Positions 43,854 through 56,828 of a stretch of 64,000 nt of DNA are shown piece by piece; position 1 is the first letter of the stretch, and each line of letters opens with the position of its first letter. Location of the stretch: NCBI GenBank assembly GCA_000987045.1, contig LAKY01000063.1, forward strand, positions 40,278-104,277, in the 5' to 3' direction. The notes beneath the pieces are model-generated. The model was not told where the DNA came from and made no database searches. It was given only the letters and a program-made list of their open reading frames with translations. Source of the stretch: Clostridiales bacterium PH28_bin88 (GTDB taxonomy: Bacteria; Bacillota; PH28-bin88). The position numbers were made by a program, and so were the translations under genes.

Positions 43854-44561
43854 TTAGTTGAGTGTGTCCGCGCCAAACTTGTAGCCCACTCCCCACACCG
43901 TCTTGATATACTTGGGATTGGCCGGGTCCATCTCTATTTTCTCCCGGAGGCGGCTGACCATTACTGTCACGTTATCGGCATCGCCCATGTAGTCGCTGTC
44001 CCAGATTTGATCCAGCAGTTGTTCACGGGTGAACACGTAGTCGGGCCGAGAGGCCATCAACCACAACAGTTTGAATTCTTTTGGCGTGAGTTGCACCTCT
44101 GTGCCCTCCACCTTCACCAGGTGCCGGCGCCGGTCGATAAACAGGCCGTTAATCCTGATGGTATCAGGGGAGTCCTCCGCCGCGTCCCGGCGGGTGGTAT
44201 TGCGCCGCAGCATCGCCTGCACCCTTAAAGCCAGTTCTGACGGGCTGAAGGGTTTGGTCAGGTAGTCATCCCCGCCCATCCTGAACCCCAGGATACGGTC
44301 CAGTTCGTCTCCCCGGGCGGAGAGAATGATAATAGGGATACTGGATTCCTCCCGGATCAGCCGGCAAACCTCAAACCCATCCACCTTAGGCAGCATCAGG
44401 TCAAGGATGACGACATCCGGTTTTTCCTGGCGAAACCTGTTCAGGGCTTCCTCTCCGTCAGCGGCCGGGATCACCTCGAACCCTTCCTTGGACATGCGGT
44501 GGGTAATGATCTTGATAATGTCCGGCTCGTCATCCACCGCCAGGATCTTTTTACTGGCCAC
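43854..44561 (-). CDS. OmpR/PhoB-type response regulator
   Basis: KKILAVDDEPDIIKIITHRM; Trans_reg_C ...VTVMVSRLREKIEMDPANPKYIKTVWGVGYKF. Confidence 0.94.
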   Translation of the reverse strand: MASKKILAVDDEPDIIKIITHRMSKEGFEVIPAADGEEALNRFRQEKPDVVILDLMLPKVDGFEVCRLIREESSIPIIILSARGDELDRILGFRMGGDDYLTKPFSPSELALRVQAMLRRNTTRRDAAEDSPDTIRINGLFIDRRRHLVKVEGTEVQLTPKEFKLLWLMASRPDYVFTREQLLDQIWDSDYMGDADNVTVMVSRLREKIEMDPANPKYIKTVWGVGYKFGADTLN

Positions 44562-46239
44562 GATCAGCCACCTCCGTTTCTGTTTTTACCAAGGGAATGG
44601 CAAAACAAAACTTGCTTCCTACCCCCCACTGGCTGTCAACCCAGATCCGTCCTTCATGCATCTCCACCAGGTTTTTAGCCAGGGCCAGCCCCAGGCCGGT
44701 CCCCTGGTGCACCCGGGTTGAGGAGCCGTCAACCTGCCGGAAAGCCTCAAAAATAATCTCCTGGTCCTCCGCTTTGATCCCGATGCCGGTATCCGTGACA
44801 CAAACCACTACCTCCCCTTCGCCCGTGCATGCGGAAACGGTGACTTTCCCGCCGGTAGGAGTGAACTTGAAGGCGTTACTCACCAGGTTCACCACCACCT
44901 GCTCGATCTTCTGCCGGTCGGCGTTCACCGCCGGCAAGTCTTCCAGTTCAACCTCCAGCCGCAAACCCTTCTTGATGGCCACCGGCACCATCCGGTGTTC
45001 CACGTCCCGGACCAGTTCCGCCAAGTCAAAGGTGGACCGTTTCAGTTCCATCTTCCGGGCCTCGATCTTGGCCATATCCAGGATGGCATTAATGGAAGTC
45101 ATCAGCCGTTGGCCCCCGCGCAGCACGTCTTCCAGGTACTCCCTTTGCTGTTCATTGATATCCCCGCCAATACCTTCCAGCAGCAATTCCACAAAAGCCA
45201 TAATTGATGTGAGCGGAGTGCGCAGCTCGTGACTGACACTGGCCAGGAACTCTGACTTCAGGCGGTTGGCCTTGGCTAGTTGGATATTGGCCGCTTGCAG
45301 GTCTTCCTGATGGCGCTTAAGGACTTCGTTGGCCGCGCTCAATTCCCTGGTGCGGTCCGCCACCTGGTTTTCCAGGTTTAAGTAGTAGTCCTTGAGCCGC
45401 AAGGCCATGGAACGCAACTCCCTGGACAGTTGCCCGATCTCAGCGGGAACGGAGATATCCGGCAAGGGGTGGTCCAGCCTGCCCTCGCCCATCTCGGTGG
45501 CAGCCCGGGCCAGTTGGGTGAGAGGAATGTCCACCAGCCGGCGGATCACCCAGAAGATAGTAGCCACGCTGAGCATTACCATCAGACCTGTCACAGTCAT
45601 TTGGGCCCTGGTCTCATCGCGCAGATTTTCCTGGAAGATGGTCATGGGTATGCTCAAGCTTACCGCCCCCGCCAGGTCACCCAGCGCGTACCGGGGCACT
45701 TCTTCGCGAAAATGCACGGCGCTGTCGGTACTGTGGCAGACAAGGCAGGGGTCCTCGATACGGATAGACAATAAGTAGCGAAAGACCCTTTGGCCGTTAA
45801 CCACATCAACTCCCCATGCTTCCTTGGTTTCGGGGTGAGACCCCATCTCCTGGATCAGCCTTGTTTCAAAGACGTCGGGAGTATTGCGCGGGTTGTTGCC
45901 CGGAAACCAGATCTCCTTGAAAGACCACTGGGCATCCCCCCCGAACAGGTCCCGCGTCCCCTTCTCCGCTGCTTGCGGGTCCAGGTGCTTGAACTGGGCC
46001 ACCGCCTCCCCGCTGGTAGGCAGGCACCCGCAGTCCTGGCTCTCGGCGACAAACGCCCGGATAGCCAAAAACTGGGTGGCCACCACCCGCGCCTTGTCGT
46101 TTAGGTCCTTTTCAGCCCGGTATTTGAGCCTTTCCATGGTCCAGGCCAGACTTAAGCCAGACACCACCACTATTGTCAGTGCGATGTACAAGATAAGTCG
46201 AACGCTGAGTCTGTCCTTTGCCTTGACCTGCCAACTCAT
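44551..46239 (-). CDS. Sensor histidine kinase with DUF3365-type c-heme sensor domain
   Basis: RIEDPCLVCHSTDSAV heme motif in periplasmic domain; HAMP; HisKA FLASVSHELRTPLTSIMAFVELL; HATPase. Confidence 0.9.
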   Translation of the reverse strand: MSWQVKAKDRLSVRLILYIALTIVVVSGLSLAWTMERLKYRAEKDLNDKARVVATQFLAIRAFVAESQDCGCLPTSGEAVAQFKHLDPQAAEKGTRDLFGGDAQWSFKEIWFPGNNPRNTPDVFETRLIQEMGSHPETKEAWGVDVVNGQRVFRYLLSIRIEDPCLVCHSTDSAVHFREEVPRYALGDLAGAVSLSIPMTIFQENLRDETRAQMTVTGLMVMLSVATIFWVIRRLVDIPLTQLARAATEMGEGRLDHPLPDISVPAEIGQLSRELRSMALRLKDYYLNLENQVADRTRELSAANEVLKRHQEDLQAANIQLAKANRLKSEFLASVSHELRTPLTSIMAFVELLLEGIGGDINEQQREYLEDVLRGGQRLMTSINAILDMAKIEARKMELKRSTFDLAELVRDVEHRMVPVAIKKGLRLEVELEDLPAVNADRQKIEQVVVNLVSNAFKFTPTGGKVTVSACTGEGEVVVCVTDTGIGIKAEDQEIIFEAFRQVDGSSTRVHQGTGLGLALAKNLVEMHEGRIWVDSQWGVGSKFCFAIPLVKTETEVADRGQ

Positions 46240-46446
46240 TACCCGGCCCTCTCCCGTGGTCCGTTCTATTTCGGGCGATGTTCTATCAATATTATTGAAT
46301 TCTAATAACCCCCTTGTAATAATTTTACATGTTCCTGCTTTCACAAGCAATCCCGCAATGCAAAGTCGCACTTGTAAATCTATTCTGGATTTGTTAATAT
46401 AATCTATTAATAAATAAACGTCACTGGTAAAACCGTAAAGAAAAAC

Positions 46447-46466
46447 GACAACTGTTCAGTTGTCGA
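46447..46466 (-). terminator. Rho-independent terminator
   Basis: cgacaactg-tt-cagttgtcg hairpin; minus strand continues with a T run. Confidence 0.65.
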
Positions 46467-46529
46467 AAGATATATGAAACATGCCACGGATCTTCAGGGG
46501 ATACTGCGTCATCGGATCCACCTTCGGAT

Positions 46530-47113: not shown

Positions 47114-47392
47114 TCATGTCCATTCCGCCACCAGCCGCGGGCGCTTCCAAACCACATCCAAACGGACGCGTAAATTTTGCTTGGCCTTGGCTTTGATGCC
47201 TTTATGGATGTACACCGTAATGCCGTTGCAAACCTGGCGCTGGAACTCTTCACCCCCTGCTTCCCCCAGCGCCACGTAGGGAATCAGGATGGAGCCGCAG
47301 CAACTAGCTTTCGCCTCCGCCGCCGTAATCTGAATGGCTCCACCATTGTCATTGATAAAGTGCCATGCGCTTCCTGTAAACCGCACCTCCAT
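47114..47392 (-). CDS. HesB-like CC/Se-motif family protein
   Basis: MEVRFTGSAWHFINDNGGAIQITAAEAKASCCGSILIPYVALG...RLDVVWKRPRLVAEW. Confidence 0.7.
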   Translation of the reverse strand: MEVRFTGSAWHFINDNGGAIQITAAEAKASCCGSILIPYVALGEAGGEEFQRQVCNGITVYIHKGIKAKAKQNLRVRLDVVWKRPRLVAEWT

Positions 47393-47466
47393 GCTTCCGC
47401 CCCCAGTAAATTGTTTAGTGTTAATGCCATCATATGCTTTTAAGGCACAACGGTGCACCATTAAAA

Positions 47467-47520
47467 AAGCAACCCGTAACGGGTTGCCGCTGTGAAACTT
47501 GCCACGGACCAGGTGACTAG
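47467..47520 (-). repeat. Repeat/leader B, copy 1 (partial)
   Basis: Minus strand: CACCTGGTCCGTGGCAAGTTTCACAGCGGCAACCCGTTACGGGTTGCTTTTTT, upstream of the CC/Se gene. Confidence 0.75.
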
Positions 47521-50848: not shown

Positions 50849-51430
50849 TCTAAATCACCCCCTCTGTGTCAGACTAAGGTCGCAATCATTATTTGCCCCT
50901 CTCAACAGCAATAATAAACGCATTCAATTATATTTATCTATCCATTAAAATTTTTTATATTGTTATATCCATTTTTGTTTATATGTCCGATTGTGATTAT
51001 AGCAAAGCAGCTTCTGAACAGCAAGGGTCACCAGGGAACGTCCACCAGTTTTTTTACCGTTCGGAAAAGGAGATCGCCCCGAACGCCCCCGTCAGGGCGC
51101 CACCTATACCAAATCCAGTCCCTCAGGCTATCACAATCAAACTTCTTCCTGAATCCACCTGCTCACACCGGGCCCTTCATCTTTTTATTGGCCCTCATTT
51201 CCTCCCATCGGGACAACTTGTTACTGGGACATCCAGTATTCAGCTGAGGCTTAACTCTTGTTCTGTTTATATTATAATATTGTAATTGATTATGATCTTA
51301 ACCCCTCACTAACCCTGCTGTCAATTGATAAAACAAGCTTCTTTTTTATAATCCCATAAAACCTTTGCCTCGCGGGCAAAGTTGCACTGTACGGAATAAA
51401 GACGGGTTGAAGCTATTGACATCAAACGAA

Positions 51431-51596
51431 AAGACAGCCCTGACTGATAGGGCTGCCTGGCAGTGAAGCTTGCCACGGGCCAGGTGGCAAAACCCTGTTG
51501 ACCTTTCCTCGGCCACACTCTAATCACACCATTCCCTTTTCCCTGGTTTGTGAACAGGCTGTGACAAAAAACCGGACAATCAGGAACTTATGCACC
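51431..51596 (-). repeat. Repeat/leader B, copy 2
   Basis: Matches 56523..56690: terminator hairpin, TTGCCAC-CTGGCCC-GTGGCAA stem-loop, GGTGTGATT -10-like element, TTTGTGAACAGGCTGTGACA. Confidence 0.85.
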
Positions 51597-51840
51597 CTGG
51601 GACGCCAATTGGGGCTGTTGCGCCCGTACCAACCCAGCGGCGATGAGCAACAAGGCGAGGAGCCCTATCCCATAGTCCAGGAAAAACCCCTGGTAGCCGG
51701 CGGCGTCGATAACCCTGCCCCCGATGGCAGTGCCGATACCACCACCGCCCATAAAGCAGAAGGCCACCAAGGATCATGATGATGGTGTTTCTTTGCATTT
51801 TCCCGAGCCTCCTCGATTTAGTTACATTGGTGGACAACAG
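51588..51840 (-). pseudogene. MFS transporter C-terminal remnant with frameshift
   Basis: RNTIIMIL then +1 frame VAFCFMGGGGIGTAIGGRVIDAAGYQGFFLDYGIGLLALLLIAAGLV; N-terminal majority of an MFS protein absent. Confidence 0.7.
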
Positions 51841-52400: not shown

Positions 52401-52503
52401 AAAGTTCACAAACTATTACGTTTCTCGTCAGGGTTTCGCCAAACTTGATGGGTATCCTCAAGGCAGGCGAGGTTACGGAGGTGATCGTGATGTGACTTAG
52501 CCA
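52401..52503 (+). repeat. Repeat/leader C, copy 1 (orphan)
   Basis: AAAGTTCACAAACTATTACGTTTCTCGTCAGGGTTT..CAAACTTG..GGGTATCCTCAAGGCAGGCGAGGTTACGGAGGTGA; matches 56726..56828. Confidence 0.85.
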
Positions 52504-54504: not shown

Positions 54505-55119
54505 CTATTTCGTTTGAGAGATTTTTACCCCGGCGTCACCCTGTTCCACGGTCAGTCCCAGGGCTTCAGCCAGGAACTTGACCGGTACCATCAACCTGCC
54601 CTGCTGGATGCGCACTTCCCCGCCCGGGGCAGCCTCCGCGCCTCCGACGGTGGCGGTCTTTTTCGCGGCATTGACCACAACTACTTTATCGCCGAGGTAA
54701 ACACTGGCGGCTTTCTCGCTGTTGTCCCAGTTTACAGTGGCTCCAAAGAACTCCGCTGCCGCCCGGACGGGCACCAGCAAGGAGTCCTTCACCACTGTCC
54801 CCTTCAGGGTCTTGCTTTCCTGCCCCACCAGGGTAATGGTGTTTTTGACCGCGGGTGCGGCCTTGGCGGGCGCGCTCGCTGCCGGCGCCGCCGGTGCGGG
54901 CTTGGCTTCCTGCTTGGCGGGTTCAGCGGGCTTGGGTGCCGCCGGCGCGGGTTTCACTACCGTTGCTTTGGAAGGAGCCTGTCCGGCAGCGTGGCAGCCG
55001 GACTTGTAGCAGTCGGTCCCAAAAGTAGGTAGAGCAGAAGCCGGTCCGCTGAGGGCCATCGCTAAAAACATCACCATTACCAGTGAAGAAAGCAGGAAAA
55101 TAGACTTCTTTTTTGTCAT
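54505..55119 (-). CDS. Exported CX4CH-module protein with copper-amine-oxidase-N-like (stalk) domain
   Basis: Signal peptide; ALPTFGTDCYKSGCHAAGQAPSKATVVKP; Ala/Pro/Lys linker; LVPVRAAAEFFGATVNWDNSEKAASVYLGDKVV...RLMVPVKFLAEALG. Confidence 0.82.
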   Translation of the reverse strand: MTKKKSIFLLSSLVMVMFLAMALSGPASALPTFGTDCYKSGCHAAGQAPSKATVVKPAPAAPKPAEPAKQEAKPAPAAPAASAPAKAAPAVKNTITLVGQESKTLKGTVVKDSLLVPVRAAAEFFGATVNWDNSEKAASVYLGDKVVVVNAAKKTATVGGAEAAPGGEVRIQQGRLMVPVKFLAEALGLTVEQGDAGVKISQTK

Positions 55120-55551
55120 TTTTTCGCACCCTTTCATATTTTGATTTAACCTTCTCGGCCTTAACACTACGGCGCCCGGATATTGGCGCTCATCACAGTC
55201 ACCTCCCGCGGGGGCTGAGCTGGTACCTTCACGCAGGCTGCGCCTTTTGGTTTGGGGATGCCCGTAAAACCCCGACGTGGTACTATGCTTTATTCGCTAT
55301 ATAAAGCGGAATCCTTTCCAATTGGGCCATAATGTTTTTCAGTAATGGTATAGAAATATTTTAAGTGCCATTTTTGCAAGTTATATCTGCCACAATTTGG
55401 CCCAGGCCTAATTCAAGCTTGCTACCGTAGAAGACCTGGGGTTCTGACATCTCCCCCACGATGATGACACCGTGAGTCAAAGAGATTGGTTCGCAAAAAA
55501 GCCGGGTACGCATAGAGGTATCCGGCTTACTGGTTAAATCCTCACAACTGT

Positions 55552-56480
55552 TCAATTTAGTGGGGGAACCCTGTACTGGATGTCCGCCAGGCTGTGCAGT
55601 TCTTCGAGCCAGGGCTCATACATTTCTTGGGTTTTAATACTAATCAGCCTTGCTTCCACTTCGGTTCTCACCTCGTTGAAATCCGGGTTGACAGCGGCTT
55701 TCTTCTCCAGCGCCTGGATTATGTGGTACCCGTCTTCCGTTACCACCACACCGCTGATTTCCCCTTGCTGTAACCCAAAGGCTGCATTTTCGAATTCGGG
55801 CTCCACTTGTCCCCTGGCAATGAAACCGATCTCACCCCCGCGATCTCTAGACGCTGAATCAACAGACTTCCGTCTGGCAACCTCGGCGAAATCAGCGCCG
55901 CGGCGGATTTCCTCAAGTACGGACACAGCCTCCTGTTCAGTATCCAACAGGATGTGCCGTACCCTGACCTCTTCGGGGAAGGTAAATTCCTCCCGGTATT
56001 CAGTAAAGTATTGAAGCATTTCTTCTTCCGTCACTTCTACAGTAGATGCTACGATCTTCCTGGCGATCCGCCATGAAGCGACCTCCTCTTCCAGGTCTTC
56101 AATGGTCATCTGATATTCCCGCAGCATCTCCTGCAGTTCATCTTCCGAAGATAATCCCCACAAGTCCTTCAAGGTTTCAATTTCTTCCCGGACTTCCTCC
56201 GGCGTCACCTCAATCCCCAGTTTTTTGCCCTCCTGCAGGATGAGCTTTTTGCTGATCAGGTCTTCCATCGCCTGCGGGCCTATCCTGGCATACATTTCCT
56301 GGTAAAGCTGATCCCGGGTCAACCTCTCACCGTTAACCACCACCAGTATTTTCGTCTGGTAGCTCCACCAAGCCCCAGCCACCGCCATCACAAGGCCCGT
56401 CAACACTAACAGGCCGGCTAATAATCCGGGCTTGAGCTTTTTTCCACTGGCTTCCCGCTCTTTCCTGTGAACCAATGCAT
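55552..56480 (-). CDS. PrsA/SurA-type peptidylprolyl isomerase (membrane-anchored)
   Basis: VRHILLDTEQEAVSVLEEIRRGADFAEVARRKSVDSASRDRGGEIGFIARGQVEPEFENAAF; TTG start at about 56480 behind aaaggggg (approximate). Confidence 0.88.
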
Positions 56481-56522
56481 AACCCCCTTTAGATTTTAAC
56501 TTTTCTTGGATACAGGAAAAAA

Positions 56523-56690
56523 GGCAACCCATACTGGTAGGGCTGCCCGACTGTGAAACTTGCCACGGACCAGGTGGCAAAACCCTGTTCTCCTTTGCTC
56601 TTGCAACACTGCAATCATACCACTTTCACCCGGGTTATTTGTGAACAAGCTGTGACAAAAAATCGAAGAAATTACGGAACTTATACCTTT
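56523..56690 (-). repeat. Repeat/leader B, copy 3
   Basis: Minus strand: GGTATGATT, TTTTGCCACCTGGTCCGTGGCAAGTTTCACAG, then GGCAGCCC..GGGTTGCCTTTTTT terminator; just upstream of the PrsA-like gene. Confidence 0.87.
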
Positions 56691-56725: not shown

Positions 56726-56828
56726 AAAGTTCACAAACTGTTACGTTTTTCGTCAGGGTTTGGTCAAACTTGCCGGGTATACTCAAGACAGGCAAGGTTA
56801 AGGAGGTGAACGCCGTATGACTTAGCCG
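56726..56828 (+). repeat. Repeat/leader C, copy 2 (upstream of DUF2680 gene)
   Basis: See copy 1. Confidence 0.85.

Follow-up and report, generated by a model that had tools for sequence, protein, structure and literature searches.

A candidate multicopy small RNA family whose shared seed is antisense to heme-attachment codons of multiheme cytochromes in a Clostridiales bacterium

What function is served by an element that recurs, each time followed by a terminator, on the minus strand of a 64,000-nucleotide stretch of the Clostridiales bacterium PH28_bin88 genome (here, the window)? The first-pass annotation described three copies sharing a hairpin and a terminator and suggested a riboswitch or attenuator, or alternatively a small RNA (sRNA). 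The sequence bears out the three copies (56690-56523, 51596-51431 and, in part, 47520-47467), which are composed of the following features.

56638-56659, minus strand: 22-bp element TTTGTCACAGCTTGTTCACAAA upstream of copy 1 (genome pattern search)
56614-56619, minus strand: copy 1 -10-like TATGAT, without a consensus -35 (sequence)
56560-56580, minus strand: copy 1 hairpin TTGCCAC-CTGGTCC-GTGGCAA, which presents the seed (sequence and fold)
56551-56576, minus strand: copy 1 antisense seed CACCTGGTCCGTGGCAAGTTTCACAG (sequence, alignment, shuffles and pairing scores)
56517-56548, minus strand: copy 1 intrinsic terminator GGGCAGCCC...GGGTTGCC followed by T6 (sequence and fold)
51547-51568, minus strand: 22-bp element TTTGTCACAGCCTGTTCACAAA upstream of copy 2 (genome pattern search)
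51523-51528, minus strand: copy 2 -10-like TGTGAT (sequence)
51461-51486, minus strand: copy 2 antisense seed CACCTGGCCCGTGGCAAGCTTCACTG (sequence, alignment and pairing scores)
51429-51458, minus strand: copy 2 intrinsic terminator (terminator scan)
47490-47515, minus strand: copy 3 antisense seed, matching all 26 nt of the copy 1 seed within a scaffold unrelated to that of copy 1 (sequence and alignment)
47462-47488, minus strand: copy 3 intrinsic terminator GGCAACCCGTTACGGGTTGC followed by T6 (fold and scan)

Copy 2 matches copy 1 at 84% identity over 82 nt, and the alignment shows a 26-nt core common to all three. Its 18-mer CACCTGGYCCGTGGCAAG has three exact matches in the window; in shuffled sequence 0.18 matches are expected even with three mismatches allowed, and none of 100 shuffles reached three. 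The upstream element noted earlier in the longer copies is present in both, and genome-wide the 22-mer TTTGTCACAGCYTGTTCACAAA occurs with fewer than three mismatches only at these two sites, so a genome-wide regulon was rejected. This element, an imperfect palindrome or 11-bp direct repeat, is possibly an activator site, or, given its restriction to copies 1 and 2, may be just part of their duplication. A second minus-strand repeat (52401-52502 and 56726-56827; 85% identity over 102 nt) precedes an ArsR gene together with copy 2 in one case and copy 1 in the other, and contains GTAAYAGTTTGTGAAC, which resembles the 22-bp element. Between that ArsR gene and copy 2, positions 51580-51800 read as an apparent frameshifted fragment of a membrane-protein gene.

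The earlier description overlooked what the seed spells in the opposite direction. The reverse complement of CACCTGGTCCGTGGCAAGTTTCACAG is CTGTGAAACTTGCCACGGACCAGGTG, which in the frame TGT GAA ACT TGC CAC GGA CCA GGT encodes C-E-T-C-H-G-P-G, so that the seed is the exact antisense of these codons. C-E-T-C-H-G-P-G (CxxCHGPG) is a heme-attachment motif of multiheme c-type cytochromes. This connection surfaced through a search of the 5.0 Mb genome (99 contigs), which returned intergenic copies together with one reverse-orientation match within a cytochrome gene. With up to two mismatches, the seed occurs in nine places, five of them RNA loci and four of them multiheme cytochrome genes; the reversed seed, searched in the same way, gave no match. 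The family is thus larger than the three copies first reported, with five clear non-coding members, two of them outside the window, and a weak sixth.

C10:56886, plus strand: fourth copy (genome search)
C90:136318, minus strand: fifth copy (genome search)
46470-46489, minus strand: weak sixth copy CCGTGGCATGTTTCATATAT, tentative, upstream of a Tll0287-like histidine kinase gene
46439-46465, minus strand: terminator immediately after the sixth copy (sequence and scan)

The fourth copy is preceded by a promoter-like TTGACG-17-TATAAT. A TATAAT is also found at the fifth, where the terminator stem, GGCATCC/GGATGCC, surrounds the seed and gives a predicted RNA of about 65 nt. At the sixth, GATCCGTGGCATGTTTCATA begins at window position 46489 and is followed at once by a strong terminator; we treat it as tentative because, at one mismatch, the pattern that found it also gives six matches in the reversed control. 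Intrinsic terminators are predicted by the folds of all six copies, as previously proposed for the three in the window, and a terminator scan also detects those of copies 2, 3 and 6. Promoter-like sequences upstream of the copies were identified by eye. These loci therefore resemble free-standing genes with intrinsic terminators, insofar as promoters judged by eye allow, and each includes a conserved stretch with complementarity to an mRNA from another locus, as is expected of trans-acting sRNAs.

The shared stretch is 23-26 nt long, and most differences between copies fall at variable positions of the heme codons or preserve pairing. Opposite the first base of the x codon the RNA has T, C or G, corresponding to ACT, GCT or CCT (Thr, Ala or Pro), and further variation matches the third bases of TGT/TGC Cys and GGA/GGG Gly. 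Flanking sequence is common to copies 1 and 2 only; the remaining scaffolds are unrelated and share the antisense stretch alone. The stem TTGCCAC/GTGGCAA with its CUGGYCC loop, reported earlier for two copies, is indeed present in the sequences and folds of copies 1 and 2 and also in the fold of the C10 copy, but it is absent from the predicted folds of copy 3 and the C90 copy, so the hairpin is not the invariant feature. As read from the sequences, what is invariant is the antisense to CxxCHGPG codons.

This bears on whether the locus might instead be a structured RNA or protein-binding motif, built on the hairpin and its loop, whose match to heme codons is coincidental. Three copies are predicted to form the hairpin and U-G pairs would allow it elsewhere, but the folds that lack it, the different stems of a second genome described below, and the chance of a heme motif of such length (about 1e-6 per sequence by our own estimate) make this very improbable. 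An Rfam search of the whole window, which the first-pass annotation had called for, gave no match at or above the gathering score, a result that also speaks against such a structured motif; the annotation itself had been unable to match the element to a known class. A riboswitch or aptamer was rejected, as no architecture is common to all copies: the scaffolds are unrelated beyond copies 1 and 2 and some predicted folds lack the hairpin. Two further candidates were set aside. The near-palindrome TTGCCAC-N7-GTGGCAA could be a DNA operator, but it is disrupted in the other copies; a small heme peptide could be encoded on the plus strand, but no ribosome binding site was seen by eye for the one frame checked, and all of the T-runs are oriented for the minus (RNA) strand.

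Which mRNA would such RNAs address? Among 89 CxxCH sites drawn from parts of this genome, the top partner of four of the six seeds (copies 1, 3, 4 and 5) is the CESCHGPG site at C58:91039, which belongs to a 9-heme protein of 638 aa that carries a copper-amine-oxidase N-terminal domain and shows matches to cytochromes c3/c7/c554 and MtrC-like proteins. It pairs with 22-25 of the 26 seed bases at predicted energies of -49 to -63 kcal/mol; the medians over the 89 sites are -21 to -28 kcal/mol. Both seed changes of the fifth copy retain this pairing through G-U, leaving 24 uninterrupted pairs, while copy 2 is mismatched at one loop base and one 3' base. Copies 2 and 6 slightly prefer a tetraheme cytochrome on C50 (CESCHGSA), which adjoins an apparent iron-sulfur/membrane-anchor oxidoreductase pair and a NarL-type two-component system. 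Within the C58 gene, the antisense consensus agrees with this heme site at 22 of 24 bases, compared with 9-13 of 24 for the remaining eight. Its codons (TGT GAA TCT TGC CAC GGA CCA GGG) have a frequency product of about 6e-7 under the gene's own usage, the lowest among the nine heme sites and 15th of 630 windows of the gene. The best target predicted by complementarity is therefore the mRNA of this 9-heme cytochrome, with the C50 tetraheme cytochrome and other CHGP-motif cytochromes as weaker candidates. The protein encoded at 54505-55134 of the window, near copy 1 and the PrsA-like gene, has a copper-amine-oxidase N-terminal domain; the N-terminus of the C58 cytochrome has its closest relative here (50%), though the multiheme part is missing.

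On these grounds we favor, as probable, a multicopy trans-acting sRNA family whose members pair within the coding sequences of multiheme cytochromes. Each locus would be an sRNA gene producing an RNA of roughly 65-135 nt, in which a single stretch of about 23 nt, antisense to C-E-x-C-H-G-P-G codons, precedes an intrinsic terminator. The RNA would pair inside the coding region of the C58 mRNA, and less well with others, and probably lower expression by blocking ribosomes or recruiting RNase, with MicC acting on ompD as a precedent (PMC3469820, PMC11347162). Because the complementarity is to heme-attachment codons, the RNAs probably switch off or tune at least one electron-transfer protein. Several copies with different upstream regions may allow different conditions or signals to feed one output, the control of cytochromes. 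Against the sRNA reading, the C58 site spans codons 320-327 of 638, about 950 nt into the coding region, which is an unusual place for sRNA control.

A different origin for the same complementarity would be decay: the elements may be functionless antisense fragments of an old cytochrome gene lying beside terminators. The stretch is a piece of cytochrome coding sequence, and copies 1, 2, 3 and the C90 copy share a contig and a strand and lie no more than 50 kb apart. However, similarity to C58 ends at the heme motif without extending into the flanks of the gene, the same 16-18-nt core persists across unrelated scaffolds and in another class of the phylum, the terminators point in the antisense direction, and most substitutions preserve pairing. 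We consider that such remnants are quite unlikely to account for the family.

The genes that follow the copies raise another alternative. As noted earlier, copies 1 and 3 sit directly before genes.

55552-56508, minus strand: PPIase/PrsA-like gene, about 35 nt downstream of the copy 1 terminator
47114-47395, minus strand: CC/Se-motif family protein gene (NF041239), downstream of copy 3

Same-strand genes also lie downstream of the C10 copy (an ArsR regulator), the C90 copy (a thioredoxin-like protein) and the sixth copy (a Tll0287 kinase). The elements could thus be cis-acting 5' leaders or attenuators governing read-through into these genes, with the antisense stretch sensing cytochrome mRNA or another ligand. 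Such a role is most plausible for copy 1, which has no obvious promoter between it and the PrsA-like start. As a general explanation it appears unlikely, since the downstream genes are mutually unrelated, no gene lies close downstream of copy 2, a separate promoter-like sequence follows the terminator of the C10 copy, the compact C90 RNA holds its seed inside the terminator stem, and no alternative antiterminator fold common to the copies was seen. Of the two possibilities raised in the first-pass annotation, the small RNA is thus favored by promoter-like sequence, terminator, multiple copies and the lack of an Rfam match, and the riboswitch or cis attenuator is disfavored by the unrelated scaffolds and the antisense match.

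The surroundings of the window copies include three CC/Se-motif family (seleno)proteins (NF041239; 47114-47395, 48361-48642 and 58954-59211) amid ACR3, ArsR and ArsP-like genes. Tll0287-like sensors with a CxxCH heme site are found at 44551-46290 of the window and in the C90 region (L079, L080); they are histidine kinases beside response regulators, plus one diguanylate cyclase, and they cluster around the RNA loci and cytochrome/molybdoenzyme genes. That these sensors are linked to the RNA family is a guess.

The seed followed by CTTTT, searched across about 85,000 species genomes, gave 12 matches, of which ten fall within cytochrome genes, one (L030) is unrelated and one (L027) is non-coding. 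The non-coding match lies in Clostridia bacterium 1MN72D_59_214 and is the same locus as in G285, a distantly related genome from a different class of the phylum, which contains two non-coding seeds and two cytochrome genes with matching sites. One G285 seed, CACCTGGTCCGTGGCAGGGTGCACAGG, has a clear terminator and lies immediately downstream of a multiheme cytochrome gene, in the same orientation; the other has no clear terminator.

L110 1577-3022, minus strand: G285 multiheme cytochrome gene
L110 1470-1540, minus strand: G285 seed locus

From its position, this RNA may be made from the 3' end of that gene. In the predicted folds of the G285 seeds, other stems take the place of the hairpin. 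GGCAGG in the G285 RNAs and CCTGCC in their 10-heme target correspond to GGCAAG and CTTGCC in this genome, a difference that fits compensatory change weakly. Because G-U replaces A-U, the G285 RNAs pair equally with the C58 site (-49.4 kcal/mol, against -47.7 for their own target), whereas the opposite combination, this genome's RNAs with the G285 target, is weaker by about 9 kcal/mol, so that covariation between the genomes discriminates only partly. The G285 target codons are not unusual (rank 143 of 719). Among the matches inspected in 399 genomes of the phylum, no further non-coding copy was found beyond this genome and G285, and the remaining two members of the class have none. The known carriers are therefore two genomes, and near-perfect targets are few, one in each.

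Multiheme cytochromes export electrons from metal-, arsenic- and selenium-respiring bacteria, and to our knowledge little is known of their control in Gram-positive species. If the sRNA interpretation is correct, a seed of heme codons would be a compact way to regulate multiheme cytochrome genes, with directly predictable targets and an address whose drift is constrained by the needs of the protein. More broadly, but only tentatively, sRNAs aimed at CxxCH codons may act as a single control point for an entire family of mutually unrelated c-type cytochromes, the protein motif doubling as an RNA regulatory address.

In the open-access literature we found no sRNA described as targeting heme-motif codons. 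RyhB lowers c-type cytochrome mRNAs in Shewanella oneidensis, but its predicted pairing is near start codons, and the terms "heme-binding" and "CXXCH" are absent from the text of that report (PMC5826389), in contrast to the heme-motif codons addressed here. MicC acting on ompD, and other sRNAs that target coding sequences, are closer in having the seed match inside the coding sequence, as at C58, with RNase-driven decay as the likely mode (PMC3469820, PMC4911921, PMC11347162); MicC is one sRNA with one seed region, whereas here at least five RNAs share a seed, and the conserved functional motif that it would address lies about 950 nt inside the gene. The multicopy LhrC1-5 sRNAs of Listeria monocytogenes, which are linked to heme biology and a two-component system, are likewise sibling RNAs of one Gram-positive genome with a common pairing stretch (PMC5880928). 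LhrC4, however, uses a CU-rich loop against the Shine-Dalgarno region, whereas the present seed matches heme-motif codons rather than ribosome binding sites and would act as a long antisense deep in the coding region, carried on unrelated scaffolds.
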